From Clostridiales bacterium (GTDB lineage: Bacteria; Bacillota; Clostridia; Christensenellales; Aristaeellaceae): a DNA stretch of 54,006 nt. Below, one piece after another: positions 13,152-42,095 of the stretch. Positions within the stretch are counted from its first letter, which is position 1. Every line of letters begins with the position of its first letter. The translations under genes and the position numbers were made by a program. The stretch is from positions 1 to 54,006 of the forward strand of contig SVHD01000009.1 of the NCBI GenBank assembly GCA_015056015.1, read 5' to 3'. The notes beneath the pieces are model-generated. The model worked only from the letters and a program-made list of their open reading frames with translations. It was not told the origin of the DNA and did no database searches.

Positions 13152-14441
13152 TTACTTATCGTTCAGGGCAGCAACACCGGGAAGTTCCTTGCCTTCCAGG
13201 AATTCCAGGGAAGCGCCGCCGCCGGTGGACACATGGGTTACCTTGTCGGCATAGCCCAGCTTCTGGATAGCAGCCGCGCTGTCGCCGCCGCCGATGATGG
13301 TGATGCCGGGGTTATTGGCAACGGCTTCCGCCACAGCCTTGGTACCAACGGCGAAGGTGGGGAATTCGGAAACGCCCATGGGGCCGTTCCAGATGATGGT
13401 GCGGGCACGGTTGACTTCGTTGACGAACATTTCGCGGGTCACCGGGCCGATATCCAGGCCTTCGAAGCCTTCGGGAATTTCCTGAGAATGCACGGTGATA
13501 TGCAGGCAATCATTGCTGAAATCATCGCCGGCTTCGTTATCCACGGGCAGCACGATGCGCTTGCCCTTGTAAGCGGCCTTGGCCAGCAGTTCCTTCGCCA
13601 GTTCCAGCTTGTCATCTTCGCAAAGGCTGTTACCGATCTTACCGCCCATGGCCTTCTGGAAGGTGTAGGACATACCGCCGCCGATCACCAGAACGTCAAC
13701 CTTTTCCAGCAGGTTGTTGATCACGCCGATCTTATCGGAAACCTTGGCGCCGCCCAGGATGGCCAGGAAAGGACGCTGGGGAGCTTCCAGAGCGCCGCCC
13801 ATGATGCGCAGTTCCTTTTCAATCAGGTAACCGCAAACGGCGGGCAGATAATGGGTCACGCCTTCGGTGGAGGCATGAGCGCGGTGAGCGGTACCGAACG
13901 CATCGTTCACATACAGTTCAGCGAAAGAGGCCAGCTTTTCAGCGAAAGCGGGATCATTCTTTTCTTCTTCGCCATGGAAGCGCAGGTTTTCAAGCACAAC
14001 CACTTCGCCGTCCTTCAGAGCGGCAACCTTTTCCTGCGCATCGGGGCCGATGACATCCTTGGCCATCTTCACTTCCTGGCCCAGATGTTCGGACAGGCGG
14101 GCAGCCACGGGCGCCAGAGAGAACTTATCCACATCGCCCTTGGCCTTTTCCAGGGCAGCGGCGGTAGCGGCTTCCTGTTCTTCTTCAGGCAGCGCTTCGA
14201 TCTTGGCCTTTTCCTTCTTGTTCAGCTTCAGGGTTTCGTTAAATACGTTGTGGGGCTTGCCCATATGGCTGCACAGGATGACCTTGGCTTCGTTCTTGAT
14301 CAGATACTTAATGGTGGGCAGGGCGCCAACGATGCGGTTTTCATCGGTGATGGTCTTGCCATCCATGGGAACGTTGAAATCCACGCGAACCAATACGCGC
14401 TTGCCTTTTACGATGACGTCTTCAATGGTCTTCTTGTTCAT
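13152..14441 (-). CDS. pgk: Phosphoglycerate kinase
   Basis: This 429-residue protein has the PGK motifs RVDFNVPMD near residue 20, SHMGKP, the hinge-region [21 protein letters not shown] and the nucleotide loop GGGDSAAA. It transfers phosphate from 1,3-bisphosphoglycerate to ADP. It is about 35 residues longer than typical bacterial PGK. The excess is a Lys/Glu/Ala-rich, probably helical segment at about residues 68-108 ([20 protein letters not shown] onward), which matches an insertion seen in some Clostridia. It is the gene after cggR (72 nt downstream) and is likely driven by the CggR-controlled promoter at 15616-15644. No gapdh gene lies between cggR and pgk. Confidence 0.98.
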
Positions 14442-17473: not shown

Positions 17474-17966
17474 GCAGGGGCCTGCGCGGCCCCCGTACCC
17501 CCGCGCCAGAGGAGTTCCTCCTCTGGACTCCGGTTTGCGAATAAACAATACTATTAAATATTGATGTTTCCGCACGAAAAGTGAGGAAACGAAAAAACAT
17601 CGCCACGGGCGCAATGAAAACGAAAAACGCCGCGAGAGAAAGCAAGCTTTCTCCTCCGGCGTTTTTTTCGTTTTCCCGGATGCAATGCATCCGGCGGGCG
17701 GCATTCTGCCGCCCAGCCCGTGGCTATCCACATGTTCCCGACGCTTCAGCGGGAAACTGTTGTCAGAAAAGTTTGTTTGTTCCGCTACCGGGTCCAGGGT
17801 CAATGATCCTGGTTCGGGGTTTGGGGCTGAATAAGCCCCATAACGTCCCCATTGCCTCACTGGCACTCAAGGCGATTCAATGGCGACTGGTAAAATCCAG
17901 TACAGCTTTTCGGAAGGGGTGCGGGGGAACCACTTTTGGCTTCAAAAGTGGTTCCCCCGCATAACT
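17474..17966. repeat. Palindrome-rich intergenic repeat, locus A (~500 bp)
   Basis: This locus fills the space between two convergent genes. Hairpins in order include GGGGCC/GGCCCC near 17478-17494 and CCAGAGGAG/CTCCTCTGG near 17506-17525. A closing stem CCACGGGC (17603-17610) pairs with GCCCGTGG (17716-17723) and encloses three hairpins (17616-17675, 17676-17694, 17696-17714). Then come CCAGGGTC/GATCCTGG (about 17793-17811), GGGGCT/AGCCCC (17823-17839) and a 19-bp perfect end stem (17920-17961). The whole is homologous, in inverted orientation, to locus B (30225-30745). Short ORFs inside do not share a frame with the other copy. Confidence 0.85.
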
Positions 17967-17979
17967 TCTTCTATTCTCT

Positions 17980-18798
17980 TTAGCCCAGCAGCTGACGGAT
18001 GGCGTCATCCAGCCAATCGCCTTCGAAAAGCTCGATCAGGCCGGCGTCGCAGGCGGCAGCCAGCTTATGATTGATGGGCAGACGGCCGAGCACCTTGGTA
18101 TCAAAGCGCTGGGCGGTTTCTTCCACATGGCTTTCGCCGAATACTTCCACATGCTTGCCGCAATCGGGGCAGAGGGCATAGCTCATATTTTCCACCAGGC
18201 CCGCCACGGAAATATTCATCATATTGGCCATGTTCATGGCCTTTTCCACGATCATGCCCACCAGCGCCTGGGGAGTGGCCACCATGATGGCGGCATCAAC
18301 CGGCAGGGACTGGAACACGGTCAGGGGCACATCGCCCGTTCCGGGAGGCATATCGATAAACATCACATCGATATCGCCCCAGAGCACATCGGTCCAGAAT
18401 TGCTTGACGGTGCCGGCGATAACGGGGCCGCGCCAAACAACAGGGGTGTTTTCTTCTTCCAGGAGCAGATTGACGCTCATCATTTTGATGCCGGTCTTGC
18501 TCGTAACAGGAATAATCCCCTGATCATTGCCCATGGCCTTATCCTTGATACCGAAAGCCTTGGGGATGGAGGGGCCGGTAACATCGGCGTCCAGGATCGC
18601 GGTCTTATAGCCCGCGCGCTGGGCCAGCACGGCCAACATGGCGGTCACCATGGATTTGCCCACGCCGCCCTTGCCGCTCATAACGGCAATCACTTTTTTG
18701 ATATTCGCGCTTGCATGGGGCTTTTCCAGCAGGCTCTTGGGATCCCGGCTGGAGCAATTGGCGCTGCAGGAAGAGCAATCATGGGTGCATTCGCTCAT
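17980..18798 (-). CDS. Mrp/NBP35-type iron-sulfur carrier ATPase
   Basis: The ATG at 18798 gives 272 residues. The N-terminus has four clustered cysteines (CTHDCSSCSANC, residues 4-15), as in NBP35-type proteins. The deviant Walker A GKGGVGKS is at about residues 42-49, the switch motif DADVTGPS follows, and IDMPPGTGD is the Walker B-like motif. A CPDC pair near residue 213 is the bridging iron-sulfur site. Such P-loop dimers load [4Fe-4S] clusters onto target enzymes in the cytoplasm. The gene stands alone on the minus strand after the EamA gene, facing an AraC gene across repeat A. Confidence 0.95.
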   Translation of the reverse strand: MSECTHDCSSCSANCSSRDPKSLLEKPHASANIKKVIAVMSGKGGVGKSMVTAMLAVLAQRAGYKTAILDADVTGPSIPKAFGIKDKAMGNDQGIIPVTSKTGIKMMSVNLLLEEENTPVVWRGPVIAGTVKQFWTDVLWGDIDVMFIDMPPGTGDVPLTVFQSLPVDAAIMVATPQALVGMIVEKAMNMANMMNISVAGLVENMSYALCPDCGKHVEVFGESHVEETAQRFDTKVLGRLPINHKLAAACDAGLIELFEGDWLDDAIRQLLG

Positions 18799-18927
18799 TA
18801 TAGATTCCCTTCTTTCCTTCTTTTCGCATAAAAAACCGGAAGCCGAAACCGGCATCCCGGTATTTTATCGGATTTAAAATTCGCCGTAAAAAAGTCATTT
18901 CCTGCCGTCAGAAAAAATTCTTTTATT

Positions 18928-19785
18928 TTATATAACGGCAATCACAATCCCGGCCAGAATAATTCCGGCGCAGATCAGCTTATAGAGCGTATTCTTTTCA
19001 TGGAAGAAAATACGCCCGCCAATAATGGTCACGATGCAGCCCGATTGCTTGATCAGGGTCATCACCGTAATGCGGCTGCCCTCCATGCTGTTGGCAATGA
19101 AAAGCGCCCGATCCCCGATCACAAATAAAATGCTCAAAAGCCAGATCCAGGGATTTTTCAAGGATTCCTTCCAATGGAAGGGGATTTTCTTTACCAGCAT
19201 GAAAAGCCCATACCAGAGCACCAGGAAAAGCATATACCAGAATTGCAGCTGGGAGGAAAGCATATCCCGCATCAGGATTTTATCCATGGTGCCTGAAACC
19301 GAATTGAGCAGGCAGCAGGCCAGGGCCATGATCAGCAATTTTCCGCTGACGTTTTCCTCCTGCAAAGGGCTCTTTTTCTTTTTCGCCTTCAAAAGCACCA
19401 GCCCGCTGCTGACCAGAATCAGCCCGATGATCTGAGGCAGGGCCATGGTCTCCCCAACAAAAATCACGCCCAGCAGGGTGGAAAACAGCATCCGGGATAA
19501 ATCCAATACCCCATACAGGCTTACCGGCATTCTCTCCAGCGCATAAAAGCCGCACATCCAGGCAATGAAAATCACAAATGCCTTCAGCGCCGTCAGGGAT
19601 AATTGCACCGGCGTTAAGCCCATGGCATTTTTCGCGTCCGGTACTACCAGCAAAAAGGAAATCAGCGTATAGAAAAACAATACGTCCATCACGCTGCTTT
19701 TCTCAATCGCCTTTTTCTTCATCAGCTCCCGCACGCCGCGCAGCACGCCAAATACCAGCACCAGCCATACCCAGGCCACGTTCAT
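18928..19785 (-). CDS. EamA/DMT-family transporter
   Basis: This 285-residue protein has ten predicted hydrophobic helices in two similar halves, as in drug/metabolite exporters with two EamA domains. The first half contains FYALERMPVSLYGVLDLSRMLFSTLLGVIFVGE, which is the EamA signature region; the second contains ITVMTLIKQSGCIVTIIGGRIFFHEK. It moves small metabolites across the cytoplasmic membrane; substrate unknown. It is upstream of mrp on the same strand with 129 nt between them. A sigma-A promoter overlapped by a 13-bp direct repeat lies upstream. Confidence 0.9.
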   Translation of the reverse strand: MNVAWVWLVLVFGVLRGVRELMKKKAIEKSSVMDVLFFYTLISFLLVVPDAKNAMGLTPVQLSLTALKAFVIFIAWMCGFYALERMPVSLYGVLDLSRMLFSTLLGVIFVGETMALPQIIGLILVSSGLVLLKAKKKKSPLQEENVSGKLLIMALACCLLNSVSGTMDKILMRDMLSSQLQFWYMLFLVLWYGLFMLVKKIPFHWKESLKNPWIWLLSILFVIGDRALFIANSMEGSRITVMTLIKQSGCIVTIIGGRIFFHEKNTLYKLICAGIILAGIVIAVI

Positions 19786-19812
19786 CCCCCCGCTTTCTTT
19801 CCAACGAATGGC

Positions 19813-19842
19813 ATTATATCATAACAGCCGGGAAAATGTAAA
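19813..19842 (-). promoter_or_regulatory. Promoter of the EamA transporter gene
   Basis: On the minus strand TTTACA (19837-19842), 18 nt and TATAAT (19813-19818). The -35 lies within a direct repeat. Confidence 0.7.
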
Positions 19843-19867
19843 CACGGCAGAAAGATGTAAACACGGC
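19836..19867. repeat. 13-bp direct repeat over the EamA -35 region
   Basis: ATGTAAACACGGC occurs at 19836-19848 and again at 19855-19867, 19 nt apart (about two helical turns). It spans the -35 box and the region upstream of it, the arrangement expected of tandem regulator sites. The second copy abuts repeat locus D. Confidence 0.55.
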
Positions 19868-20002
19868 GGGAGGGTAATTCTTTGTAAAGGCATCGCATGC
19901 CCTGCGCTTTGCTTGCGCATGCTCTCTGCATTTGCAAAAGGGGCTTTTACCGCGTCACAAACCCACAAGGGGTTTGTTCCTGAGAATGTTTTTCCCCACA
20001 AT
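19866..20002. repeat. Intergenic repeat, locus D (related to the right module of locus C)
   Basis: This stretch between the EamA gene and htpG matches the complement of 13009-13138 over its length. It shares GCGGGAGGG..ATTCTTTG at the start, CATCGCAT, CTCTCTGCA, CGTCACAAACCC and GGTTTG..CCTGA. Its terminal inverted repeat is largely decayed on the right (TTTTTCCCCACA), so it looks like an older copy. Confidence 0.7.
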
Positions 20003-20025
20003 AACCCTTATATTTTATTCCCCCG

Positions 20026-21918
20026 TCAGGCCTTCCGGGCCAGCAGGGCAATCAATTCGTTGCTGCGGCTGATAAAGGCCTTGAGATCCTCGGCTTCCAG
20101 GGGCCGGGAGGACATGCGGGCCAGATCATACATCTGTTTGCACAGCAGGGCAGAAACCTCGCCCTCTTCCATGGCCGCCAGATCGCGGATAGCGGGACAG
20201 GCGCGATTGAGCACCAGGGTATATTTATCGGGGAAGGCAAAATCCTGGCCATACATGGCGCTCATTTCCTTGTAGCGGCGGATCTGCTCATCCTCTACCA
20301 GCATCAGGGGCAATTCCTTATCGGAAAGGGCCTCCATTTTCACTTCCAGTTCCGCATTTTCCAGGGCGTCCCGGAACAGCTTTTCCATTTGTGCCTGATC
20401 AATATCCTTGCCTTCTTCGCTGTCTTCGGTAAGGCCGGAAACATCGGCGTCCACCCGCACAAACTGCAGCCCTTCATTGCCGCCGCCAAATTCCATGAAG
20501 CTCATGAAATTCATATCGATCAGGGTATCCATAACAATGACGTCGATTCCCCGGTTCACATACAGGGAAACCGCCGCGGCCTGTCGATTCTGTTCGGTGG
20601 TATAATAGACCTTCTTTTCCGCCTTGCCTTCGTTGCGGGCCTTGTATTCCTCCAGGGTGAAATATTCCCCGGCGGTGGATTTGAGCAGCAGGCTGCCCTT
20701 CACCAGATCATAGAATTTGGCGTCCCGGACGCAGCCGTATTTCACGAAGGGATGAATATCATCCCAGTAGGTTTCATATTGCTTACGCTCGGTATTGAAC
20801 AGGCCGTTGAGCTTGTCCGCCACCTTCTTGGTAATATGGGCAGAAAGCTTTTTCACATAGCCGTCATTCTGCAGGAAGGAACGGGATACATTCAGGGGCA
20901 GATCGGGGCAATCAATGGCGCCCTTGAGCAGCATCAGGAATTCAGGAATGACTTCCTTAATATTATCCGCCACAAACACCTGCCGGTTGAAAAGCTTGAT
21001 CTGCCCTTCCTGGCCGCCGAAATCCTTCTTCAGCCGGGGGAAATACAAAATGCCCTTGAGATTGAAGGGATAATCCACATTCAGATGCACCCAGAACAGC
21101 GGATCCTCAAAGGTATGGAAAAGCTTGCGGTAGGTTTCCTTATATTCTTCCTCGGTGCAATCCTTGGGATTTTTCAGCCACAGGGGATGGGTATCATTGA
21201 TGGGCTTTTTCGCTTCTTCGGCTTCTTCCTCATCGGTGCCGTGCACATGAGGTTCCTTGCAATCCTCGCAATCGCAGTGCTCCTCATGATGGGGCTTTTC
21301 TTCCTTGGGGGAAAGATCCTCCAGATAGATGGGGGTAGCCATATAGCCGCAGTAGCGATCCAGCACCCCGCGCACCCGGAAGGCATCCAGGAATTCCTTT
21401 TCCTCTTCCATGATATGCAGAATAATGGTGGTGCCCCGTTCCTTACGGCCGCCATCCTGCATGGTGAAGGCCATGCCATCCTCGCTTTCCCAAAGCACGG
21501 GGGCGGCATTTTCCTGCCAGGACAGGGTATCGATGGTCACCTTATCGGCAGTCATGAAGGCAGAATAAAAGCCCAGGCCGAAATGGCCGATGATGCCGCT
21601 CTGATCATCGCTGGTATAATTCTTCAAAAATTCTTCCGCGCCGGAAAAAGCCACCTGATTGATGTATTTTTCCACTTCTTCACGGGTCATGCCGATGCCG
21701 TTATCGGTGAAGCGGATTTCCCCGGCTTCCGGATCCACGGTGACGGTAACCCGGAAATCTTCCCCGGTTTCGCCTTTGATCATCTTATACTTGGTAATGG
21801 CGTCGCAGCCGTTGGATACCAGCTCGCGGATAAAAATATCTTTGTCGGAATAGAGCCAGCGCTTGATCACCGGCATAATATTTTGCGCATGAATCGAAAT
21901 ATTGCCTTTCATTTCCAT
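20026..21918 (-). CDS. htpG: Molecular chaperone HtpG (Hsp90 family)
   Basis: The ATG at 21918 is preceded by GGAGG and gives 630 residues, the usual size. The GHKL ATPase domain shows ELVSNGCDAITK, DNGIGM and GHFGLGFYSAF. The middle domain begins after the linker (LFHTFEDPLFWVHLNVDYPFNLKGILYFP), and the C-terminal dimerisation domain follows. HtpG is an ATP-driven cytoplasmic chaperone. The N-terminal/middle linker (about residues 205-238) is unusually rich in His, Cys and Glu (KPHHEEHCDCEDC). A CIRCE operator at 22007-22033 next to a consensus promoter implies HrcA control. Confidence 0.97.
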   Translation of the reverse strand: MEMKGNISIHAQNIMPVIKRWLYSDKDIFIRELVSNGCDAITKYKMIKGETGEDFRVTVTVDPEAGEIRFTDNGIGMTREEVEKYINQVAFSGAEEFLKNYTSDDQSGIIGHFGLGFYSAFMTADKVTIDTLSWQENAAPVLWESEDGMAFTMQDGGRKERGTTIILHIMEEEKEFLDAFRVRGVLDRYCGYMATPIYLEDLSPKEEKPHHEEHCDCEDCKEPHVHGTDEEEAEEAKKPINDTHPLWLKNPKDCTEEEYKETYRKLFHTFEDPLFWVHLNVDYPFNLKGILYFPRLKKDFGGQEGQIKLFNRQVFVADNIKEVIPEFLMLLKGAIDCPDLPLNVSRSFLQNDGYVKKLSAHITKKVADKLNGLFNTERKQYETYWDDIHPFVKYGCVRDAKFYDLVKGSLLLKSTAGEYFTLEEYKARNEGKAEKKVYYTTEQNRQAAAVSLYVNRGIDVIVMDTLIDMNFMSFMEFGGGNEGLQFVRVDADVSGLTEDSEEGKDIDQAQMEKLFRDALENAELEVKMEALSDKELPLMLVEDEQIRRYKEMSAMYGQDFAFPDKYTLVLNRACPAIRDLAAMEEGEVSALLCKQMYDLARMSSRPLEAEDLKAFISRSNELIALLARKA

Positions 21919-21970
21919 AAAAAATACCTCCATTTCAGGGTTTTGCCAAGCAATTATTGGGCATGTTCGC

Positions 21971-21999
21971 ATTATAGCACGCGCCATAAAAAAATGCAA
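21971..21999 (-). promoter_or_regulatory. htpG promoter
   Basis: On the minus strand TTGCAT (21994-21999), 17 nt and a perfect TATAAT (21971-21976), 53 nt before the start codon. Confidence 0.8.
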
Positions 22000-22002
22000 C
22001 AG

Positions 22003-22037
22003 AAAATTAGCACTCTCGTGAAGAGAGTGCTAATTTT
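22003..22037. promoter_or_regulatory. CIRCE operator, also shaped as a terminator for the upstream gene
   Basis: TTAGCACTC-N9-GAGTGCTAA (22007-22033) is an exact CIRCE element, the HrcA binding site. It sits just upstream of the htpG -35 box. The palindrome extends to a 15-bp stem with AAAA on one flank and TTTT on the other. On the minus strand it therefore also forms a terminator-like hairpin 22 nt after the stop codon of the 22059-23702 gene. Confidence 0.9.
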
Positions 22038-22058
22038 GAATAAAAACTATTTTCCGGA

Positions 22059-23702
22059 TTATTTCTTTTCCATCCACGCCTTCACGCCGTTGGCGATATT
22101 CAGGTAATCATTGGTCAGGATGGTATCAATGCCCATTTCCAGATAGCGAATGGCTTCCTCCACTTCATCGGCGTAAAATACATTGCAGCGGATGCCATTG
22201 GCGTGGGCCTTATCCACCATTTCCTGATTGAAATAGGGCTTGAAGAGCTGCACCTTGCAGCAATCATATTGGATGGCCCGCTCTACAATATTCCATGCCG
22301 GGGCCAGATTATCTTTGCTATGCCCGGCACCGCAGCAGCGGCGGATATCGGGATACAATTTCTGGGCCAGCGCCAGGAAATGATCATTCCCGCACATGAA
22401 ATAGACATGCTTGCGGCAATCATAGCGATCAATCAGGGAAACAATCTTATGCAGGGTTTCTTCTTTATAATCCACATCGTTATCGACGGTTTTGATATGG
22501 ATATTCATGATGGCCTGCCCGGCGAATTTCTGCAGAATTTCTTCAAATTTTACGATCTTAAGTCCCCGATACTTTTCGGAGAATTTCACGCCGAAATCGC
22601 ATTGCAGCAATTCATCATAGGTTTTTTCATAAATCCGGCCCGTGCCGTCGCTGACCCGGTCCAGCTTCGCATCATGGCAGGAAACAATTTCCCCGTCTGC
22701 GGTTTCCCACAGGTCAAATTCGATTTCCTGCGCACCCAGGGCGATGGCCGCGCCAAAGGCCGGCATGGTATTTTCCGGGGCCACGGTGTTATACCCACGA
22801 TGGGCGCAGATGCGGGGATAAGCCATCACATCATCAAAGGGAACGATGGCGGCGCCGCCATTGCGATAGAGCCAGGGACGGCGGCCATCCTCGATGTATT
22901 CATAATGGGCCTTCATGGCGCCATTGAAGCCGGCGGGCTTGAAATATTTATCCTTAGGATCAAATTCCGCGATACCCAGGCCAATCCGGCTTTCCATATC
23001 CACCAGCACGGTGCCATCGGGCTTTACGATGGTACTGCCGCCGCAAATGGGGGAATCCTCGCCCAGAGAAACGCTGGCGCGCACCAGATAGGCATTGGTA
23101 TGATAGGAAAGGAAGCGATTGATGATAGAAAGGGCCTGATGGGTATCCGTCCGCTGATGGGAGCAGCCGATCACCACATCCACATTTTTCCGGGCCAGGG
23201 GCGCAAAGGCTTCATAAAAATAAAAATCATAGCAGGTCATAAAACCATAGCGGATGCCTTCGATTTCCACCACATAGGGTTCATTGAAGCGATAGCTGTA
23301 ATCCACCTGCAAGCCATTGCCATGCTGCGCTTCGGTTCTCACTTCGCTGGGAGCGGGATGCGCCTTGAAATACTGACCGACGATTTCGCCCTGGCGATTG
23401 ATGGCATGGGTGGTATTGATAAAGCCCTTGTCCCCCTTGGAAGCCGCATTGACAAAAACCACCGCATTGCAGCGGATGGCGGCCGCCTTGGCCCGGGCAA
23501 GAATATCTTCATTATAAAGAGCAATCGACGCCTCAAAATCCTTTTTGCATGTCTGATAGGCAGGCACATCGCAATATTCCGGCAGCACGATCAGATCCAT
23601 GCTTTCATCGCATTGATCCAGCAGGGCGATCATTTCTTCATAGCAGCGCTTGGTATCTTTGGCTTGTTTGGAATAATAGGGCTGAATTACGCAGGCTTTC
23701 AT
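22059..23702 (-). CDS. Nitrilase-superfamily hydrolase fused to glycerophosphodiester phosphodiesterase
   Basis: I chose the ATG at 23702 (GGAAAGGA 10 nt upstream), giving 547 residues. Residues 1-270 are a carbon-nitrogen hydrolase domain with the triad Glu42 (VLPEYCD), Lys113 (QYFKAHP) and Cys157 (MTCYDFYF). Residues about 297-545 are a GDPD TIM barrel: ICAHRGYNTVAPENT, IEFDLWETADGEIVSCHD, and a late TNDYLNIA. The first half would hydrolyse an amide or nitrile; the second would cleave a glycerophosphodiester to glycerol 3-phosphate and an alcohol. The two may act on successive bonds of an N-acyl-ethanolamine-like or other amide-bearing phospholipid head group, which is inference. No signal peptide is visible. 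The gene is monocistronic with its own promoter. Confidence 0.92.
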   Translation of the reverse strand: MKACVIQPYYSKQAKDTKRCYEEMIALLDQCDESMDLIVLPEYCDVPAYQTCKKDFEASIALYNEDILARAKAAAIRCNAVVFVNAASKGDKGFINTTHAINRQGEIVGQYFKAHPAPSEVRTEAQHGNGLQVDYSYRFNEPYVVEIEGIRYGFMTCYDFYFYEAFAPLARKNVDVVIGCSHQRTDTHQALSIINRFLSYHTNAYLVRASVSLGEDSPICGGSTIVKPDGTVLVDMESRIGLGIAEFDPKDKYFKPAGFNGAMKAHYEYIEDGRRPWLYRNGGAAIVPFDDVMAYPRICAHRGYNTVAPENTMPAFGAAIALGAQEIEFDLWETADGEIVSCHDAKLDRVSDGTGRIYEKTYDELLQCDFGVKFSEKYRGLKIVKFEEILQKFAGQAIMNIHIKTVDNDVDYKEETLHKIVSLIDRYDCRKHVYFMCGNDHFLALAQKLYPDIRRCCGAGHSKDNLAPAWNIVERAIQYDCCKVQLFKPYFNQEMVDKAHANGIRCNVFYADEVEEAIRYLEMGIDTILTNDYLNIANGVKAWMEKK

Positions 23703-23735
23703 GGCGATCAATCCTTTCCCATATATAATAACTAC

Positions 23736-23764
23736 ATTATACTGTATATTTTCTTCTCAAGCAA
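23736..23764 (-). promoter_or_regulatory. Promoter of the nitrilase-GDPD gene
   Basis: On the minus strand TTGCTT (23759-23764), 17 nt and a perfect TATAAT (23736-23741). Together with 23926-23986 this accounts for the divergent intergenic region 23703-24012; I see nothing else there. Confidence 0.7.
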
Positions 23765-23925
23765 GTAGCAAGCCGCCCGGATTCATCATATTTCATTTTT
23801 CCAATCGCTTGTTTTTTCTCCTGTTGAAAGGCGGGGAATTCTTTCTTTTCGCCCCAATCATGTACTTTCTGTTACCAATTCGCCCAAAATGCAAAAATTG
23901 TTTGCCCAAAATCATTTTTTGTTCG

Positions 23926-23955
23926 TTGACGCAGCGATTTTACTGATGCTATGAT
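23926..23955 (+). promoter_or_regulatory. Promoter of the second sugar ABC operon
   Basis: TTGACG (23926-23931), 18 nt and TATGAT (23950-23955), upstream of the binding protein gene at 24013. Confidence 0.65.
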
Positions 23956-23968
23956 TTCCTCAACAGAA

Positions 23969-23986
23969 GTTGCTCCAAGGGGCAAC
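23969..23986. promoter_or_regulatory. Operator-like palindrome in the 5' leader of the second ABC operon
   Basis: GTTGCTCC and GGGGCAAC are near-complementary arms separated by only AA. That is too tight for an RNA hairpin loop but suits a DNA operator at about +7 to +24. Confidence 0.45.
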
Positions 23987-24012
23987 AAAATCATCTGAAG
24001 GAGGAACCCAGC

Positions 24013-25599
24013 ATGAAAAAGGTATCCTTGTTTCTTGCCCTGATCCTGGCGCTGACCATGGCGCTGCCCGTATCCCTGGCAGAAGATTACACCCTGCCGC
24101 TGACCACCACCGGCGAAACCCTGAGCCTTTCCATTCAGGAAAATTTCTATGCTGCTGCCAGCTATGCCGATAACCTGATCGTCTATCAGGAATTGGAAAA
24201 GCGCACCGGCGTCCCCATTGAATGGGATGTTGTGCAGAATTATGACGAAGTCATGAATATCCGCTTTGCTTCCGGCGAAAAGCTGGCCGACATCGTGCAG
24301 CTGCCCGGCTGGAGCACCAACGACCCCGTGAAATTCGCGGAAGCCGGCAAGATCATCGCGCTGGATGAACTGATCGAGCAGTATGCCCCCAACATCAAGA
24401 AGCTGATGGAAGATCTGCCCGAACTGGCCGCTGAAATGACCAGCTATGACGGTCACATCTACTTCATCCCCCAGAATCTCTACGGCCTGAACTATCACGC
24501 CCCCTATTCCCTGGTCATCCGTCAGGACTGGCTGGATAAGCTGGAACTGGAAACCCCCAAGACCCTGGATGACTGGTACAATGTGCTCAAGGCCTTCAAA
24601 GAAAAGGATCCCAACGGCAATGGCGAAGCGGATGAAATCCCCTTCACCTCTGTTACCGCCGGCCTTTCCTGGACCAATGCCTACGGCTATTTTGCCTCCG
24701 GCTTCGGCCTGACCGCCCCCGTTACCGGCACTCGTTACTGGTATGATGAAAACGGCAAGCTGTATGATCAGTACCAGACGGAAGAATTCAAAGAATGGAT
24801 TTCCTGGATCAGCAAGCTCTATGACGAAGGCCTGATTGATCCTGCCTTCTCCCGTTCCAGCGGCGATCTGCAGGCCATGCATCTGGAAGACCGCATCGGC
24901 GCCACCGCTTTCTATGCGGATGATATCGCCTCCTGGCAGAGCGTATGTCATGCCAATGGTCACGATTATGTGCAGTTCACCATTCTGGAAACTCCCCCCA
25001 CGCCCGAAGGAAAGCCTGCAACGCACGTCATGCGTCAGCTGGCCGGCGGCCGTTATTCCATCTCCACCTGGTGCGAAAATCCCGTGCTGGCCATTCAGTG
25101 GATCGATTATCATTACGCCCATCCCGAAGGACAGGTTCTGATGATGTTCGGTATGGAAGGCACTCACTGGTACTGGGATGAAAACGGCGTTCGTCAGTGG
25201 ACCGAATACGTCAGCAACAACGCCGAAGGCCTGAGCCAGTTCAACGTGCTGCGCAAGGACGGCGCCAATCCCGCCCAGTTCACCAACCGCACCGAAGAAT
25301 TCGGCCGGATGTGCGTGCCGGATTGGATTTATGCCCAGTGCGCCCCCATCCAGGCCAACCTGGTCAATCCCATCCCCACCCTGCCCGCTACCCCTGATGA
25401 AATCGATGATATGAGCATCATCGATACCGACCTTGCCACCTACACCTCCGAAACCGTGCTGGCATTCCTCCAGGGCAACAGCGACGTGGAAGAGGAATGG
25501 GACAGCTATATTGCCACGATGAAGGGCATCGGCGCGGATGAACTGCTGGCTATGAAGCAGGTGCAGTATGACCGCATGAACGGCGTGGAAGCCGAATAA
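24013..25599 (+). CDS. Extracellular solute-binding protein of a sugar ABC transporter
   Basis: The ATG at 24013 follows GAAGGAGG. The 528-residue product has a signal peptide (residues 1-23, ending SLA before Glu-Asp) and no lipobox cysteine, so it is secreted or anchored by other means. The mature part has the large family 1 binding-protein pattern, including KDPNGNGEADEIPFT, a calcium-loop-like motif frequent in LipO/YtcQ proteins. It delivers an oligosaccharide to the permeases encoded downstream at 25685-27514. A strong hairpin between this gene and the permease genes probably raises the binding protein mRNA level relative to the permeases. No ATPase gene is present. Confidence 0.95.
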   Translation: MKKVSLFLALILALTMALPVSLAEDYTLPLTTTGETLSLSIQENFYAAASYADNLIVYQELEKRTGVPIEWDVVQNYDEVMNIRFASGEKLADIVQLPGWSTNDPVKFAEAGKIIALDELIEQYAPNIKKLMEDLPELAAEMTSYDGHIYFIPQNLYGLNYHAPYSLVIRQDWLDKLELETPKTLDDWYNVLKAFKEKDPNGNGEADEIPFTSVTAGLSWTNAYGYFASGFGLTAPVTGTRYWYDENGKLYDQYQTEEFKEWISWISKLYDEGLIDPAFSRSSGDLQAMHLEDRIGATAFYADDIASWQSVCHANGHDYVQFTILETPPTPEGKPATHVMRQLAGGRYSISTWCENPVLAIQWIDYHYAHPEGQVLMMFGMEGTHWYWDENGVRQWTEYVSNNAEGLSQFNVLRKDGANPAQFTNRTEEFGRMCVPDWIYAQCAPIQANLVNPIPTLPATPDEIDDMSIIDTDLATYTSETVLAFLQGNSDVEEEWDSYIATMKGIGADELLAMKQVQYDRMNGVEAE

Positions 25600-25613
25600 A
25601 CCTGCCACTTACC

Positions 25614-25641
25614 GGAGCGGAGAGCATTCGCTCTCCGCTCC
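25614..25641 (+). terminator. Hairpin between binding protein and permease genes
   Basis: An 11-bp perfect stem GGAGCGGAGAG/CTCTCCGCTCC with loop CATTCG is followed by CCTCTCTTTT. The weak T-tract suggests a partial terminator or mRNA stabiliser, as is common after binding protein genes. Confidence 0.7.
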
Positions 25642-25684
25642 CTCTCTTTTCTTCAAAGAATATCATTGATTGCGAGGGATGGCC

Positions 25685-26623
25685 ATGACCACAATGATTC
25701 AAAAAAACACCCGGAAGAAAAAAACATTTCTCCAAAGGTTATGGCAGGATAAGGCCTTTGTCCTCCTTGCACTGCCGGGCATTGCATTTTATATCATTTT
25801 CCATTATGTGCCCATGTATGGCGTTTGGATGGCATTTACGAATTACAATATGTCCAAGCCCATTATTCTCAGCGATTTTGTGGGGATCAAATGGTTTGAG
25901 CAATTCTTCAATTCTTACTTCTGCGGCCGCCTGATCCGAAATACCCTGACCATCAGCCTCAAGGGACTGTTTTTCAGCTTCCCCATTCCCATTCTTTTCG
26001 CCATCATCCTCAATGAAGTCCGCCACACGAAATTCAAGCGGACCGTGCAGACAGTCTCCTATCTTCCGCATTTCATTTCCACGGTGGTTGCCGTGGGGAT
26101 TCTCAAGGATATTTTCTCCGCCCCCGACGGCATCATCAATCAATTGATCGTCATGCTGGGCGGCAAAGAAATCCATTTCTTTAATAAGCCTCAGTATTTC
26201 CATGGCTTGTATATCGGTTCCGGCATCTGGAGCAGCTTTGGCTGGGGCTCCATCCTCTATATCGCCGCCATTGCCGGGATTGATCCTCAGCTCTACGAAG
26301 CTGCCACCATTGATGGCGCCAATCGTCCGCAGCAGATCTGGCATGTTACTATTCCGGGCATTCTGCCCACGGTCGTCATGATGCTGATTATGAACGTAGG
26401 CAGTATCATGAGCGTTGGTTACGAAAAAATTATCCTGATGTACGGCCCCTCCACCTATGAAACGGCAGACGTCATCAGCACCTATGTTTACCGTCGCGGT
26501 CTGGTCAGCGGCGATTACAGCTTCGGTGCCGCCATAGGCCTTTTCAATAATGTGATCAACCTGATTCTGCTTCTGCTCGTAAATAAAATCAGCCGCAAAG
26601 TGGCGGATATCGCATTGTGGTAA
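25685..26623 (+). CDS. Carbohydrate ABC transporter permease, LplB/YteP type
   Basis: I chose the ATG at 25685, with GAGGG at proper distance, giving 312 residues. Six hydrophobic helices are visible, starting with FVLLALPGIAFYIIF. The EAA loop is YEAATIDGANRPQQIWHVTIPGI near residues 208-230. The C-terminus ends SRKVADIALW as usual for LplB-type subunits. It forms a heterodimer with the permease at 26639 (15-nt gap) and imports the sugar bound by the 24013 protein. It is a paralogue of the permease at 2673-3719. Confidence 0.95.
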   Translation: MTTMIQKNTRKKKTFLQRLWQDKAFVLLALPGIAFYIIFHYVPMYGVWMAFTNYNMSKPIILSDFVGIKWFEQFFNSYFCGRLIRNTLTISLKGLFFSFPIPILFAIILNEVRHTKFKRTVQTVSYLPHFISTVVAVGILKDIFSAPDGIINQLIVMLGGKEIHFFNKPQYFHGLYIGSGIWSSFGWGSILYIAAIAGIDPQLYEAATIDGANRPQQIWHVTIPGILPTVVMMLIMNVGSIMSVGYEKIILMYGPSTYETADVISTYVYRRGLVSGDYSFGAAIGLFNNVINLILLLLVNKISRKVADIALW

Positions 26624-26638
26624 AGGAGGGATGCAGGA

Positions 26639-27514
26639 ATGAATAAAGATAAATTCTGGAAACTTCTGGGCGATCTTTTGGTATATGGTATCTGTATTAT
26701 CGCTGCCCTCATTACGCTCGTTCCCCTGCTGCATATTCTGGCCCTGTCTCTGGCAGATCAAAAACTGGTCATCGCCAAAGATGTATTCCTGATTCCCTGG
26801 GGGCTGAATTTTGAATCCTATAAGCTGGTCGTGAATAATCCCAGCTTTCTCACGGCCTACGGCAATACCATCTGGGTAACCGTGATTGGCACGCTGCTCA
26901 ATCTGCTGACCACATTCACCCTGGCCTATCCCCTTTCCCAGAAAAATTTCTGCCTGCGCCGGCCCATCATGCTGGCCATCACCTTCACTATGTTCTTTTC
27001 CGGCGGCCTGATTCCCAGCTATATTGTGGTATCCAAAATGGGGCTGATCGGCTCCCGCTGGGCGATGATCATTCCCTCCGCCATCAGCACCTGGAATCTG
27101 ATCATCACACGTACCTTCTTTGAAAATATCCCCGATTCGCTTTTCGAATCTGCCCGCCTGGATGGCGCCAGCGAAATGACCATCCTTTTCAAAATTGTGC
27201 TGCCCGTATCCACCACCATCATCGCGGTTATGACCCTGTATTACGCAGTCGCCCAATGGAATACCTATATGTCTGCCATTCTGTATGTCACCGATTCCAA
27301 GATGCATCCTTTGCAGGTATTCCTGCGCCGGGTATTGCTGCAGGGCTCGGAAGAAATGGCGGTGGGCATGCAGGTAGGCAGCGCCCGGGATATGGCCGTT
27401 CACCAGCTGAAGTATTCCGCCATTATCATGACCATCCTGCCGATCGTATGCATTTATCCTTTCCTGCAGAAATACTTCGTCAAGGGTGTTATGATCGGCG
27501 CCGTCAAGGGATAA
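26639..27514 (+). CDS. Carbohydrate ABC transporter permease, LplC/YtcP type
   Basis: This 291-residue protein starts at an ATG with AAGGAGG upstream. It has six helices, an EAA loop near residues 170-190 (FESARLDGASEMTILFKIVLP) and the C-terminal KGVMIGAVKG ending typical of LplC. It completes the channel of the second sugar importer in this window. The following gene encodes an AraC-type regulator and two esterase-like hydrolases, suggesting that the imported compound is an acylated glycan fragment; this is inference. Confidence 0.95.
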   Translation: MNKDKFWKLLGDLLVYGICIIAALITLVPLLHILALSLADQKLVIAKDVFLIPWGLNFESYKLVVNNPSFLTAYGNTIWVTVIGTLLNLLTTFTLAYPLSQKNFCLRRPIMLAITFTMFFSGGLIPSYIVVSKMGLIGSRWAMIIPSAISTWNLIITRTFFENIPDSLFESARLDGASEMTILFKIVLPVSTTIIAVMTLYYAVAQWNTYMSAILYVTDSKMHPLQVFLRRVLLQGSEEMAVGMQVGSARDMAVHQLKYSAIIMTILPIVCIYPFLQKYFVKGVMIGAVKG

Positions 27515-27640
27515 GGCACAAGCAAACGGTCAGCCATCAATCGATCTTATTTCGTCACAGATTTTCAAATGCGCTTGCTTTCCCTGTTTTCCCTTCAGGA
27601 AAGCAGGCGCATTGTTTTCGCAGAAAGGTACGTTTTCACC

Positions 27641-28060
27641 ATGTGCAACGAAAGCTGTTTTCATCCGATTTCTCCCGTTCCAGGCCCCGGAAACAAAATT
27701 GACAGCACTGCTGAAATGTTGTATGATTACATCGAAAAAAATCATGCTTCGCCCATCACCATCGCTTCCATGGCGCAAGCGCTGTGCATCTGCAAAACCA
27801 ATCTGTATCTGCTGTGCAAAACGAATTTTCATCAGCCGCCCATGCAGATTGTCAATCATTACCGGATTCAGGAAGCCAAAGCGCGCCTGCTTGCCGGGAA
27901 TGATCCTGTTTGCGTAATCGCCAGAGAAGTGGGAATTACGGACACCAACTATTTTTCCAAGCTTTTCAAGAAACAAACCAGGATGACCCCTTCCGAATTT
28001 CGGCGAAACGGAAGAACAAAAGACGGGAAGGCAGGAGGAGGAACGCATGAAGCCCATTGA
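27641..28060 (+). CDS. Short AraC-type regulator (DNA-binding domain only)
   Basis: I chose the ATG at 27641 with AGAAAGG upstream, giving 139 residues; an earlier in-frame ATG at 27569 has no ribosome binding site. Nearly the whole protein is the AraC double helix-turn-helix (ITIASMAQALCICKTNLYLLCKTNF and CVIAREVGITDTNYFSKLFKKQTRMTPSEFRR). The sensory domain found in the other AraC proteins here is missing. It lacks an effector domain, so it may act constitutively or with a partner. It overlaps the next gene by 14 nt, indicating translational coupling to the SGNH hydrolase genes it may control. Confidence 0.85.
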   Translation: MCNESCFHPISPVPGPGNKIDSTAEMLYDYIEKNHASPITIASMAQALCICKTNLYLLCKTNFHQPPMQIVNHYRIQEAKARLLAGNDPVCVIAREVGITDTNYFSKLFKKQTRMTPSEFRRNGRTKDGKAGGGTHEAH

Positions 28061-29117
28061 AGAAATTGACCGCAATTTTGCCCTGAATCAGAAAACAGAA
28101 GACGGCCTGATTTATTATGACGTATGGCAGCCGCCTTTTGGCGTTTGGGGGCTGATTCCCAATGCAAAAAACAGCTTCTGCCGTTTTCCTTTGGAAGTGT
28201 TGCCCAGGCTTCCCGAAACTGTGCAGTCCCTGGCCTGGCATACAGCAGGGGCATGCGTTCGTTTTTCCACGGACGCCCCGTCCATTGCCGTAAAATGGCG
28301 CTTGGCCGCCCAGCAGACCTCCGCGCATTTTACTCCCTGCGCTAAAAGCGGCCTGGAATTATTTGAAGAGAATGATACCGGCGTTTTTGCCGTCAAAAAT
28401 CTACTGCCCGCCATGGATAACGGAAGAGGCTGCCTTCTGGATCAGCAATTTCCGGTGGATTTGCCTGGTGGGATGCGGCATTATGCGCTGTATCTGCCCC
28501 TGTATAATGGGCTGGAATATCTGCATATCGGCTTCCCGGAGGGGGCACAGATCCTGCCCGGCCGCACTCCGAAAATTGAAAAGCCGCTGGTTTTCTACGG
28601 TTCTTCCATCACCCAGGGGGGCTGCGCCGCCAAGGTCGGCTCCTGCTATCCCACCATTCTGGCACGGCGGCTGGATGCCGCCCAAATCAATCTGGGCTTT
28701 TCCGGCAGCGCCCGGGGCGAAACCTCAGTAGCTGAATATATCGCCGGCCTTTCCATGAGCGTTTTTATTTACGATTACGACGCCAACGCTCCCGGATACC
28801 GGCATTTGCAGGAAACCCACGAGCCTTTTTTCAAAATCATCCGGGCCGCCCAGCCCGATCTGCCCATCGTGATGGTTACCCTGCCCTGCTTCCGGGGAAC
28901 GGATGATCATATCCGCCGCCGGGAAATCATCCGGCAAACCTACAAAAACGCCCGGAAAAGCGGGGATCAAAACGTCTACTTTGTGGATGGAGAAACCCTC
29001 TTTGGCCAGACCGACCGGGATATGTGCACCGTGGACGGCGTCCATCCCACCAGTCTGGGTTTCCTTCGCATGGCTGACGGGCTGGAGCCCGTGCTGCGCC
29101 AGGCCCTGAAACAATAA
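28047..29117 (+). CDS. SGNH/GDSL-type hydrolase, first of a tandem pair
   Basis: This 356-residue protein starts at an ATG after AGGAGGAGGAACGC. Residues 1-165 form a beta-rich N-terminal domain. The SGNH domain follows: block I FYGSSITQGG near residue 190 carries the nucleophile Ser, block II is GFSGSARGE, and block V DGVHPTSLG supplies Asp and His. Such proteins are esterases, frequently carbohydrate acetylesterases. No signal peptide is visible, so it should remove acyl groups from imported sugars. It overlaps the AraC gene and is followed after 22 nt by a close paralogue. Block I has Gly-Ser-Ser-Ile instead of GDSL, normal for this subfamily. Confidence 0.92.
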   Translation: MKPIEEIDRNFALNQKTEDGLIYYDVWQPPFGVWGLIPNAKNSFCRFPLEVLPRLPETVQSLAWHTAGACVRFSTDAPSIAVKWRLAAQQTSAHFTPCAKSGLELFEENDTGVFAVKNLLPAMDNGRGCLLDQQFPVDLPGGMRHYALYLPLYNGLEYLHIGFPEGAQILPGRTPKIEKPLVFYGSSITQGGCAAKVGSCYPTILARRLDAAQINLGFSGSARGETSVAEYIAGLSMSVFIYDYDANAPGYRHLQETHEPFFKIIRAAQPDLPIVMVTLPCFRGTDDHIRRREIIRQTYKNARKSGDQNVYFVDGETLFGQTDRDMCTVDGVHPTSLGFLRMADGLEPVLRQALKQ

Positions 29118-29139
29118 CAGGATTTAAGGAGAAAAAGCG

Positions 29140-30210
29140 ATGAAGCCCATTGAAGAAATTGACCGCAATTTTGCCCTGAATCAGAAAACAGAGGACGGCC
29201 TGATTTATTATGACGTATGGCAGCCCCCTTTCCAGGCCTATGGCATCGTGCCCAATGAGAAAAAAAGCTTCTGCCGTTTTCCCCTGGAAGTGCTGCCCAC
29301 TCTGCCCGAGGGCGTGCGTTCCCTTGCCTCCCATCTGGCCGGGGCATGCATCCGCTTTTCCACCGACGCCGCTTCCATTGCCGTCAAATGGCGTTTGCCC
29401 AACGGGCGGCATATGCCCCATTGCACGCCCTGCGCCAAGAGTGGCCTGGAATTATTCGAGGAAAGCGACCAGGGCATTTTTGCCGTCAAAAACCTGGTTC
29501 CTGCCCTGAATGAAGGCGCCGCCTGCCTGACGGAGCAGCAGACCACCGTCTCCCTGCCCCAGGGCCTGCGGCATTATGCCCTGTATCTGCCCTTGTATAA
29601 CGGCCTGGAGTATCTGTATATCGGCTTCCCGGAGGGGGCGCAGATTCTCCCCGGCCGTACGCCTGCCATTGAAAAGCCCCTGGTTTTCTACGGTTCCTCC
29701 ATCACCCAGGGGGGCTGCGCCGCCAAGGTGGGCTCCTGCTACACCACCATCCTGGCCCGGCGGCTGGACGCCGCCCAGATCAATCTGGGCTTTTCCGGCA
29801 ATGCCCGGGGTGAAACGGCGGTGGCCGAATATATTGCCAGCCTTTCCATGAGCGCTTTTATTTACGATTACGATCACAATGCCCCTTCCCCCGAACATTT
29901 GGAAAAGACCCACGAGCCTTTCTTCCAGATCATTCGAGCCGCCCAGCCCGATCTGCCCGTTATTATGGTATCCCGGCCCGATTTCAAAGGCGCAGAGCAG
30001 GATATCCGCCAGCGGGAAATCATCCGGAAAACCTACGAAAACGCCCGGAAAAACGGCGATGAAAACGTCTATTTCGTGGACGGGGAAACCTTCTTTGGCA
30101 CCCAGGATCGGGATATGTGCACCGTGGACGGCACCCATCCCACCAGCCTGGGCTTCCTTCGCATGGCCGACGGGCTGGAACCCGTGCTGCGCCAGGTGCT
30201 GAAGTTGTAA
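29140..30210 (+). CDS. SGNH/GDSL-type hydrolase, second of a tandem pair
   Basis: This 356-residue protein has the same length as the preceding gene product and is highly similar throughout, starting with an identical first 31 residues. Block I FYGSSITQGG, the GFSGNARGE block and block V DGTHPTSLG are intact. Differences are concentrated in residues 85-145 and 265-300, which probably border the active site, so the two enzymes may have different acyl or sugar preferences. AAGGAG lies before the ATG. No signal peptide. The pair is a recent tandem duplication. Repeat locus B begins 14 nt after the stop codon. Confidence 0.92.
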   Translation: MKPIEEIDRNFALNQKTEDGLIYYDVWQPPFQAYGIVPNEKKSFCRFPLEVLPTLPEGVRSLASHLAGACIRFSTDAASIAVKWRLPNGRHMPHCTPCAKSGLELFEESDQGIFAVKNLVPALNEGAACLTEQQTTVSLPQGLRHYALYLPLYNGLEYLYIGFPEGAQILPGRTPAIEKPLVFYGSSITQGGCAAKVGSCYTTILARRLDAAQINLGFSGNARGETAVAEYIASLSMSAFIYDYDHNAPSPEHLEKTHEPFFQIIRAAQPDLPVIMVSRPDFKGAEQDIRQREIIRKTYENARKNGDENVYFVDGETFFGTQDRDMCTVDGTHPTSLGFLRMADGLEPVLRQVLKL

Positions 30211-30224
30211 TCTGGAAGATTATG

Positions 30225-30745
30225 CGGGAGGGGTATTCTTTGTGGCCAAAGAATACCCCTCCCGTGCCCACCCCAAGAAAGCCGTACTGGATTTTACTGG
30301 CCGCCATTAAATCAACTGAATGCCAGTGGAGCGCGGGGAACAATATGGGGCTTATTCAGCCCCAAACCCCGAACCAGGGTCATCGACCCTGGACCCAGTA
30401 GCGGAATGGGAGTGGATTTTCTACAAACGCTTTCCCGCTGGGACTTGAGGATACGCTTGGTCGTCCCACGGGCCGGGCGGCATTGGCCGCCCAGCGGATG
30501 CAAAGCATCCGGGAAAACAAAAAGAACGGCAACGGAGAGAACTTGTTCTCTCCCGTGCCGTTTTTTGTTTTCGGTTGGCCCGTGGATTATTTTAATCGTA
30601 TTCTGAAGTTCTTATTTTCCCAAGTTTCATGCGGAAATAACCGTATTTTCCCACCCCAGTCGTTTCGCAAACCGGAGTCCAGAGGAGGAACTCCTCTGGC
30701 GCAGGGGTACGGGGGCCGCGGAGGCCCCTGCCCCGTTTCTCCCCC
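30225..30745. repeat. Palindrome-rich intergenic repeat, locus B (~500 bp)
   Basis: The left end is a perfect 18-bp stem (30225-30242 with 30247-30264). It is followed by GGGGCT/AGCCCC and CCAGGGTC/GACCCTGG hairpins near 30348-30393. A closing stem CCACGGGCC (30466-30474) pairs with GGCCCGTGG (30577-30585) around three hairpins (30475-30492, 30495-30511, 30513-30572). A CCAGAGGAGG/CTCCTCTGG hairpin follows near 30679-30699. Order and spacing mirror locus A in the opposite orientation. The region separates the SGNH gene pair from the next promoter and has no credible coding sequence. Confidence 0.85.
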
Positions 30746-30775: not shown

Positions 30776-30803
30776 TTTCATTTTTCAAAAAAGCGTGTAT
30801 AAT
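30776..30803 (+). promoter_or_regulatory. Promoter of the TM1266-like gene leader
   Basis: A perfect TATAAT lies at 30798-30803. The -35 region is weak (TTTCAT at 30776-30781, 16-nt spacer). Transcription would start near 30810. Confidence 0.6.
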
Positions 30804-30927
30804 AGGAATGTGCAAAGGCCACAAACCTGCGTGCCCATCGGGCATAAGGGGGAGCAGGCGGCGCAACAGAAAGGTTTCCCTTGAAGGCAGGAGTATTCCG
30901 GGCCTGAGAGCGAAAGGAGGCAGCAAT

Positions 30928-30954
30928 ATGCGTACATCACTGAGTGGGGCATGA
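30928..30954 (+). CDS. Eight-residue leader ORF (MRTSLSGA)
   Basis: ATG at 30928 is preceded by AAAGGAGG at 7-nt spacing, a stronger site than that of the downstream gene. The ORF ends at TGA (30952-30954), inside the 5' arm of the terminator hairpin. A ribosome on this ORF would cover the terminator stem and could favour read-through. This is inferred from layout only. Confidence 0.45.
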   Translation: MRTSLSGA

Positions 30955-30978
30955 CAGGGCTGTCGTGCTTATTTTTTT
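30949..30978 (+). terminator. Intrinsic terminator/attenuator in the leader
   Basis: GCATGACAG and CTGTCGTGC arms (9 bp, one G-T pair) with loop GG are followed by TTATTTTTTT. It lies directly upstream of the AAGGAG site of the regulator gene. Confidence 0.8.
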
Positions 30979-30993
30979 AAGGAGATGCGAAGC

Positions 30994-41981: not shown

Positions 41982-42057
41982 TGGTGCGCCATCAGGGACT
42001 CGAACCCGGGACACCCTGATTAAGAGTCAGGTGCTCTACCAACTGAGCTAATGGCGC
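41982..42057 (-). tRNA. tRNA-Lys (CTT)
   Basis: 76 nt with encoded CCA. The acceptor stem is GCGCCAT/ATGGCGC and the anticodon loop CTCTTAA. The T-stem has one C-T mismatch (positions 50-64). Confidence 0.95.
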
Positions 42058-42095
42058 ATAAGGGGCTTAGCCTGTGGCATACTCCCCTTTTAAGC

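Follow-up and report, generated by a model that had tools for sequence, protein, structure and literature searches.

A mosaic intergenic repeat in a Clostridiales bacterium whose end hairpin covaries with a mirror-image linker and may form a strand-switching DNA triplex

Intergenic elements that keep their base pairing while their sequence drifts raise the question of what the pairing is kept for. We addressed this question for two hairpin-rich elements, A and B, in a stretch of 54,006 nt from a Clostridiales bacterium (assembly GCA_015056015.1, contig SVHD01000009.1, positions 1 to 54,006; hereafter the window). A first-pass annotation had described them as two related elements of ~500 bp; they are indeed related, although the single drifting unit that this implied has to be replaced by two mosaics of modules (M1 to M5) that also occur alone. 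Both belong to a mosaic repeat that recurs between genes of their own genome and of relatives. Their terminal hairpin, M5b, is preceded by a linker that is the mirror image of one hairpin arm; the annotation overlooked this linker, which is the most informative part of the element. On the whole, we lean modestly towards a mosaic repeat at gene ends in which M5b forms a strand-switching intrastrand triplex of class-I order. The M5b units of A, B and a further locus, C, are located as follows.

17906-17919, plus strand: linker of M5b in A, CTTTTCGGAAGGGG, proposed third strand and mirror of arm 1 (mirror analysis)
17920-17961, plus strand: M5b hairpin of A, 19 bp, perfect, loop GCTT, arms 17920-17938 and 17943-17961
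30267-30281, minus strand: linker of M5b in B, CTTTCTTGGGGTGGG, proposed third strand (mirror analysis)
30225-30264, minus strand: M5b hairpin of B, 18 bp, perfect, loop GCCA, arms 30225-30242 and 30247-30264
12865-12877, minus strand: linker of the left M5b of locus C, TTTTCGGAGGGGG
12821-12864, minus strand: left M5b hairpin of locus C, third stem version CCGCTTTTG, arms 12821-12840 and 12845-12864
12990-13137, plus strand: right M5b of locus C, arms 13010-13022 and 13125-13137, with an insert of ~100 nt in the hairpin (profile match 12996-13032)

The perfect end stems of A and B differ in sequence, and in the left stem of locus C CCGCTTTTG replaces the CCACTTTTG of A, an A-T to G-C change whose partner base has changed accordingly; the first-pass annotation had read all three stem versions correctly. 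The end hairpins of A and B belong to different subfamilies, each of which is also present at other loci of the genome. In M5+ orientation, the 13–20 nt directly 5′ of arm 1 correspond to arm 1 reversed and uncomplemented. Among 98 parsed hairpins, the linker words TTTCTT, TTTTC, TTTTCTTT, TTTCTC and TTTTTC accompany the arm words TTCTTT, CTTTT, TTTCTTTT, CTCTTT and CTTTTT, respectively; the linker T-run is longer at locus L070. Parsing excluded weak or displaced hairpins and matches too close to a contig end, and skipped L001-L008, L043-L046, L088, L118, L134 and L135 as duplicates or unrelated (L134 contains no module). The resulting set of 147 copies comprises 96 of the 98 parsed hairpins and 51 copies added later; two wrong-strand hairpins (L079+ and L014+ at 4277) and L205, which overlaps L181 on the opposite strand, were dropped before scoring.

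For 37 representatives with <80% identity, mean local scores were 18.1 for the mirror reading, 11.7 for a direct repeat, 8.1 for the reverse complement, 9.1 for the complement and 9.3 for shuffled linkers, and the three other readings were rejected because of their lower scores. Linkers match their own arms better than those of other copies under the mirror (18.1 versus 14.2; 0 of 5000 permutations), the corresponding values for the direct reading being 11.7 versus 11.2. Twenty copies from later genomes (G162, G103, G122, G164 and G076, the last from the same genus as the earlier seen G047) yielded 18.8 for the mirror, 12.5 for the direct repeat, 13.1 for the reverse complement, 12.5 for the complement and 8.1 for shuffled linkers, with the mirror best in 18 of the 20 (exceptions L234 and L238). 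With 48 representatives, 28 from the genus and 20 from outside it (2 of 167 copies omitted for N or a short linker), own pairing exceeded cross pairing in each group (0 of 5000 permutations), and the mirror was strictly the best of the four readings in 44; one further representative gave a tie, and in L036, L200 and L238 another reading scored higher. Six copies initially left out (L170-L175) all scored best as mirrors; alignment A3 omits 5 of 58 listed sequences. At the level of sequence, these comparisons demonstrate that linker and arm covary as mirror images, in genomes from five families of the order. We know of no duplication, inversion or copying process that yields a reversed, uncomplemented copy.

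To lie in the major groove of the hairpin, a strand has to be reversed and uncomplemented relative to the arm, and this leads to the reading of the linker as a putative third strand. Triplexes that switch strands are part of known nucleic acid chemistry. The pairing rules that we applied are those given in Holder et al. 2015 (PMC4666352). The linker G-run is as long as the C-run of arm 1 in 39 of 44 distinct copies (5 of 8 for n = 1, 33 of 35 for n = 2 and 1 of 1 for n = 3), where only copies with A before the C-run of the arm and A after the G-run of the linker were counted and a C adjoining a linker word that ends in C was counted into the word. That n C in arm 1 are accompanied by n G in the linker fits G placed on the G of arm 2, whereas a strict mirror would give C. 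Opposite A of arm 1, the linker carries A in 113, G in 24, T in 20 and C in 0 cases, and A, T and the absent C fit a third strand. The linker frequently omits 1–2 nt where the purine tract changes arms, and 36 of 48 G.T or A.C mispairs lie at positions 7–11 from the loop, near the strand switch. In M5+ letters, 77 distinct stems contain 35 G.T and 13 A.C mispairs, an excess which suggests that M5+ is the strand that folds. Judged by sequence, the third strand is readable by the hairpin purines in the right polarity, with the exceptions given below. A G-quadruplex, which concerns the subtype GGGG.GGG..GGG.GGGG only, was not retained, since the four G-runs are missing in other subtypes.

In our proposal, M5b combines a perfect or near-perfect hairpin of 17–20 bp with a 5′ linker that would occupy its major groove and act as a third strand. 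On the upper side of the strand switch, the linker bases (T, C or G) would read arm-2 purines, and on the lower side (G, A or T) those of arm 1. With the third strand at the 5′ side of the hairpin, this arrangement would follow class-I order. We infer that the M5+ strand folds into the triplex as DNA while it is single-stranded, as during replication, transcription or negative supercoiling, and that selection keeps the three-stranded fold. Purine-motif triplexes do not form in RNA, according to work cited in PMC4666352.

In the genus, M5b is placed just beyond stop codons. Its 3′ side faces the 3′ end of a gene in 55 of 70 copies of the own genome and 36 of 46 copies of genus relatives, at a distance of ≤25 nt from the stop codon in 43 of the 55 and of ≤28 nt in 34 of the 36; these counts are approximate, as genes were called by a home-made caller based on codon usage. 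The right M5b of locus C ends 14 nt from the stop codon of phosphoglycerate kinase (13152-13154), a minus-strand gene by Pfam over which the caller had erroneously placed an open reading frame (ORF) on the plus strand. The tail that follows arm 2 is on average A-rich first and has no immediate T-tract. A terminator consensus scan reported the M5b of A as terminator-like with a weak tail and did not report that of B; an intrinsic terminator was not kept as the full account of M5b, given the weak tail. Less firmly than the triplex itself, we propose that M5b hinders polymerases crossing gene boundaries, alongside the terminator-like hairpin of M2. Potential intrastrand triplex (PIT) elements block DNA polymerase in vitro, as cited in PMC4666352.

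Several observations weigh against this proposal. The C/G run match comes mostly from one class (n = 2), and G opposite A of arm 1 (24 of 157; 59 of 264 in a second count) forms no triplet of the code. Perfect stems account for only 45 of 98 distinct hairpins. Adding the triplex-allowed pairs raises own scores (18.1 to 22.9) and shuffled scores (9.1 to 14.1) alike, and the extended triplex code (z 20.0; control codes 15.9 and 19.3) falls below the plain mirror (z 34.5) and hardly exceeds the better of the two controls. Since the extended code is no sharper, it is the count of C/G runs, together with the A/T column, that carries the argument from mirror to triplex. Exceptions to the mirror are L025+, L036+, L066-, one copy of L017, L200, L238 and L234, and the copies are related, so that permutations overstate their independence. 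The covariance model of M5b (R1) includes linker columns, which favour copies with that kind of linker while not favouring the matching of linker variants to arm variants. The bias towards gene ends is absent in G047 (5 of 16) and G051 (5 of 13), where gene calls were trained on few sequences. In the work of Holder et al. (PMC4666352), footprinting in E. coli detected no stable triplex in vivo, and PIT elements are cited there as having neither promoter nor terminator activity; the lack of terminator activity counts against a simple terminator or barrier role.

The remaining modules of the two elements were delineated in the window as follows.

17474-17966, plus strand: element A, hairpin modules M1-M2-M3-M4-M5a-M5b
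17474-17541, plus strand: M1 of A, two hairpins, GGGGCC..GGCCCC and CCAGAGGAG..CTCCTCTGG (profile search; compensatory pairs)
17603-17723, plus strand: M2 of A, outer stem CCACGGGC/GCCCGTGG around three hairpins (profile search, covariance-model match, covariation)
17746-17813, plus strand: M3 of A (profile search)
17794-17846, plus strand: M4 of A, hairpins CCAGGGTC..GATCCTGG and GGGGC..GCCCC, overlapped by the M3 model (profile search)
17854-17909, plus strand: M5a of A, CACTGGCA...ATCCAGTAC (profile search)
30225-30745, minus strand: element B, hairpin modules in the order of A
30664-30731, minus strand: M1 of B (profile search)
30466-30585, minus strand: M2 of B (profile search, covariance-model match)
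30373-30441, minus strand: M3 of B (profile search)
30340-30392, minus strand: M4 of B (profile search)
30278-30332, minus strand: M5a of B (profile search)

A and B lie in opposite orientation and share 74% identity over positions 1–436 of A, and an end-to-end alignment bears out the common hairpin order that had been annotated. Folding z-scores are −12.8 for A and −10.1 for B, and an equally good fold was obtained in 0 of 100 shuffles. In 21 copies of M2, 97.9% of cells pair, and two-sided changes occur in 12 of 34 pairs (shuffled mean 5.3) with a covariation score of 0.191 versus 0.087 shuffled; in 34 distinct copies of M1, two-sided changes occur in 5 of 14 pairs, with a score of 0.180 versus 0.050. 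For either module, 0 of 500 shuffles reach the pair count or the score, where both structures were derived from the same alignments, so that slid controls favour them, and the shuffles ignore relatedness. Further pair types are no more numerous than in shuffles (216 of 500 for M2 and 190 of 500 for M1). The compensating two-sided changes thus support the conservation of structure proposed at first pass. An A-tract and a T-tract flank the first of the three hairpins enclosed in M2, which has a covarying GC stem (17616-17675 in A, 30513-30572 in B) and looks like a bidirectional intrinsic terminator. By eye, additional terminator-like hairpins lie between or beside M5 units at L012, L015, L029 and L033. 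Loops are inverted in place in M1 of L009, L022 and L023, as is hairpin 1 of M2 in L009; such inversion in place is a DNA-level event.

From A and B we built profiles of six segments (M1, M2, M3, M4, M5a and M5b), with which the window and 46 further stretches were scanned. The canonical order is M1-M2-M3-M4-M5a-M5b, and many copies are partial or rearranged, with two M1 in tandem, M3 within M2 (L022, L024, L034) or M5 replacing most of M3 (L012, L016); M5 units also occur alone or as inverted pairs facing outward. Junctions look common to rearranged copies, so that the composite arrangements were probably copied as such. In a variant M5b, the top of the hairpin is exchanged for an insert with a small hairpin, CAAACCC..GGGTTTG, followed by GACGCGGC or a similar sequence (window 12990-13137; L009, L010, L012, L014, L016, L022, L036, L040, L076). 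The genome of the window (2.9 Mb, 106 contigs, 84.5% complete) contains at least 76 matches to A and at least 100 to B (40 of 125 and 40 of 143 candidates scored), counts that include some palindromes counted on both strands. The M2 covariance model yields 63 matches at E ≤ 0.001, many of them the opposite strand of the same palindromes, and R1 yields at least 150 M5b matches, at least one of which is the reverse strand of another. Several draft contigs (L013, L026, L027, L028) end within repeats, and true copy numbers are therefore probably higher.

R1 finds M5b in 27 of 28 genus relatives and, outside them, in 2 of 31 genomes; of 161 genomes sampled from the order, 14 have it, the own genome included. 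Together with the sequence searches, these copies agree with the repeated spread suggested by the first-pass annotation. M5b-like hairpins are patchy across several families of the order (G162, G103, G122, G076, G047, G051, G164), where some genomes have tens of matches and most sampled genomes have none; the genus member G018 has BLAST matches to A and no M5b match by the covariance model. No relatives of one M5b copy were found in E. coli. Full A or B stands beside the corresponding gene in none of the relatives examined (for A, 29 further loci were compared, of which two have only a partial or doubtful match to Mrp; for B, 23), and the second flanking gene (AraC, GDSL) was found at none of the compared orthologous loci, so that insertion and rearrangement cannot be distinguished. 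At the 3′ end of the Mrp gene, relatives carry an M5 pair (G002, L091) or a single M5b (G009, L112). Diverged, weak M1-M2(-M3) matches lie ~100–300 nt upstream of the Mrp gene at L099 and L103 and, inverted, at L110 and L111; they are possibly vertically kept copies in related species.

A rival explanation is a selfish palindromic element, similar to miniature inverted-repeat transposable elements (MITEs) or REPINs. Its folds would be kept for recognition by a transposase as single-stranded DNA, and its sites at gene ends would simply be those where insertions are tolerated. Near-identical copies at separate loci (98% identity over 392 bases between B and a relative at another locus, C5), nested and recombined modules, the absence of full A or B beside the corresponding gene in the relatives examined, and inverted M5 pairs that resemble the REPIN layout all speak for it. 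However, Y1 transposase is absent from the own genome and occurs in only 10 of 29 genus genomes, and 17 of the 18 relatives with no Y1 match carry 25 to at least 85 M5b matches; on these grounds, dependence on RAYT/REPIN was rejected, within the stated completeness of the genome. Phage and plasmid collections contained no match to B and viral contigs none to either of two exact patterns, one for M1 and one for M5b, and carriage by phage, plasmid or virus was likewise rejected. M1 and M5b, which bound the full element, differ in sequence. Stretches from four close-species pairs were scanned for empty sites, and the one site compared had unrelated flanks on one side; no target-site duplication was derivable. 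Tolerance alone would also not lead one to expect the polar, narrow spacing to stop codons. We consider the selfish element unlikely, though a serious competitor.

REP hairpins are thought to protect transcripts from 3′ exonucleases or to affect translation termination. M5b could similarly act in RNA as an element of the 3′ untranslated region, with a hairpin after the stop codon that blocks 3′ exonucleases or affects termination of translation and a linker that has no role in a triplex. The tight stop-codon spacing in the own genome and the perfect or near-perfect stems that differ by compensatory changes would be expected from it, as would several convergent gene pairs with one M5b per gene, some with a terminator-like hairpin between them (by eye). 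It leaves the mirror linker unexplained, and the M5b mispairs (35 versus 13) favour folding of the strand opposite the gene transcript, while the mispairs of M1 and M2 favour neither strand (G.T 11, A.C 9). We regard this explanation as improbable. A purely mutational origin, in which template switching between the arms makes stems perfect and compensated with no selection on structure, accounts for the small number of one-sided changes among variable pairs, and the inverted loops and the one inverted M2 hairpin (L009, L022, L023) show strand exchange at palindromes; it can neither create nor keep the mirror relation between linker and arm, and has little chance of being correct. That the mirror arises by chance from purine and pyrimidine runs of low complexity is very hard to credit: linker and arm do consist of simple runs of G and T, and direct similarity also exceeds shuffled linkers (11.7 versus 9.3), yet under the mirror own arms beat those of other copies in a way that the direct reading hardly does, and the mirror recurs in genomes that were not used to notice the pattern.

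Beyond this genome, we hold as a tentative proposition, one that we do not quite favour, that a strand-switching three-stranded DNA hairpin is maintained by selection in several bacterial families, with at least 100 copies in some genomes. If true, third strand and duplex changing in concert would constitute comparative evidence for an intrastrand DNA triplex working in living cells. Because linker and stem vary jointly across subtypes and families, they would represent a natural mutational test with exact, falsifiable base rules. If the triplex were confirmed, third-strand covariation could serve as a genome-wide triplex finder, as covariation does for RNA helices, and triplexes at gene ends would become a candidate class of polymerase barriers.

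Two further features of the window are an eight-gene tRNA array on the minus strand (41982-42715) and a structured-looking leader before a TM1266-like/NMT1-like gene pair (30800-30980), which has no Rfam match at gathering score. Rfam yielded only tRNAs at gathering score in the window and only sub-gathering matches for A and B at permissive thresholds, and identity of A or B with an Rfam family was rejected.

The first-pass annotation knew of no named element with this layout. For the whole layout this stands, as searches of Rfam and of paper listings turned up none; for the end stem it does not, since a comparable kind, the BoxC/PIT/TM repeats, has been published. REP, BIME and REPIN sequences are palindromic intergenic mosaics with inverted pairs that lie after stop codons. 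In layout, A and B share this general organization; they differ in their longer modules and the mirror linker, and no RAYT/Y1 transposase was found in the own genome. The pneumococcal BOX resembles them in layout as a modular repeat whose boxes are separable and occur alone or combined, in a different host. With intrinsic terminators, hairpin 1 of M2 has the A-tract, the GC stem, the T-tract and covariation in common, whereas M5b differs from them in its A-rich tail start and in having, on average, no immediate T-tract.

The nearest known kind to M5b by likeness is formed by the BoxC/PIT/TM intrastrand-triplex repeats, for which our comparison draws on Holder et al. (PMC4666352), with Hoyne et al. 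2000 taken as cited there; bacterial repeats with the potential for an intrastrand triplex have been known since about 2000, and footprinting in E. coli in vivo gave negative results. Among the papers listed by literature searches for intrastrand or strand-switching triplexes in bacterial repeats, none concerned a strand-switching triplex repeat, and the TM consensus CCCTCNCCC N3-6 GGGNGAGGG N3 GGGNGAGGG has no exact match in the window. The published ITxF/TM definition (three domains of 6–15 nt in one strand, loops of 1–6 nt, one class and ≤1 mismatch), as implemented in our own script, is satisfied by 0 of the 147 M5b copies on either strand, a set that excludes the later 20 copies; two control strings built from the published TM pattern were detected. 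We attribute this to the purine tract switching arms and to the long loop between the lower arms. Both kinds are GC-rich palindromic intergenic repeats present in many copies, some as inverted pairs, and both combine a hairpin and a third strand (proposed for M5b) in one DNA strand with a turn of ~3 nt to the arm. In M5b, the putative third strand lies 5′ (class-I order), whereas TM is class II, and the purine tract switches arms within a long stem, so that one linker would use both binding modes. M5b is located at gene 3′ ends in the genus, whereas TM in E. coli is found more often upstream of ORFs, and unlike BoxC/PIT/TM, M5b is part of a larger mosaic element.

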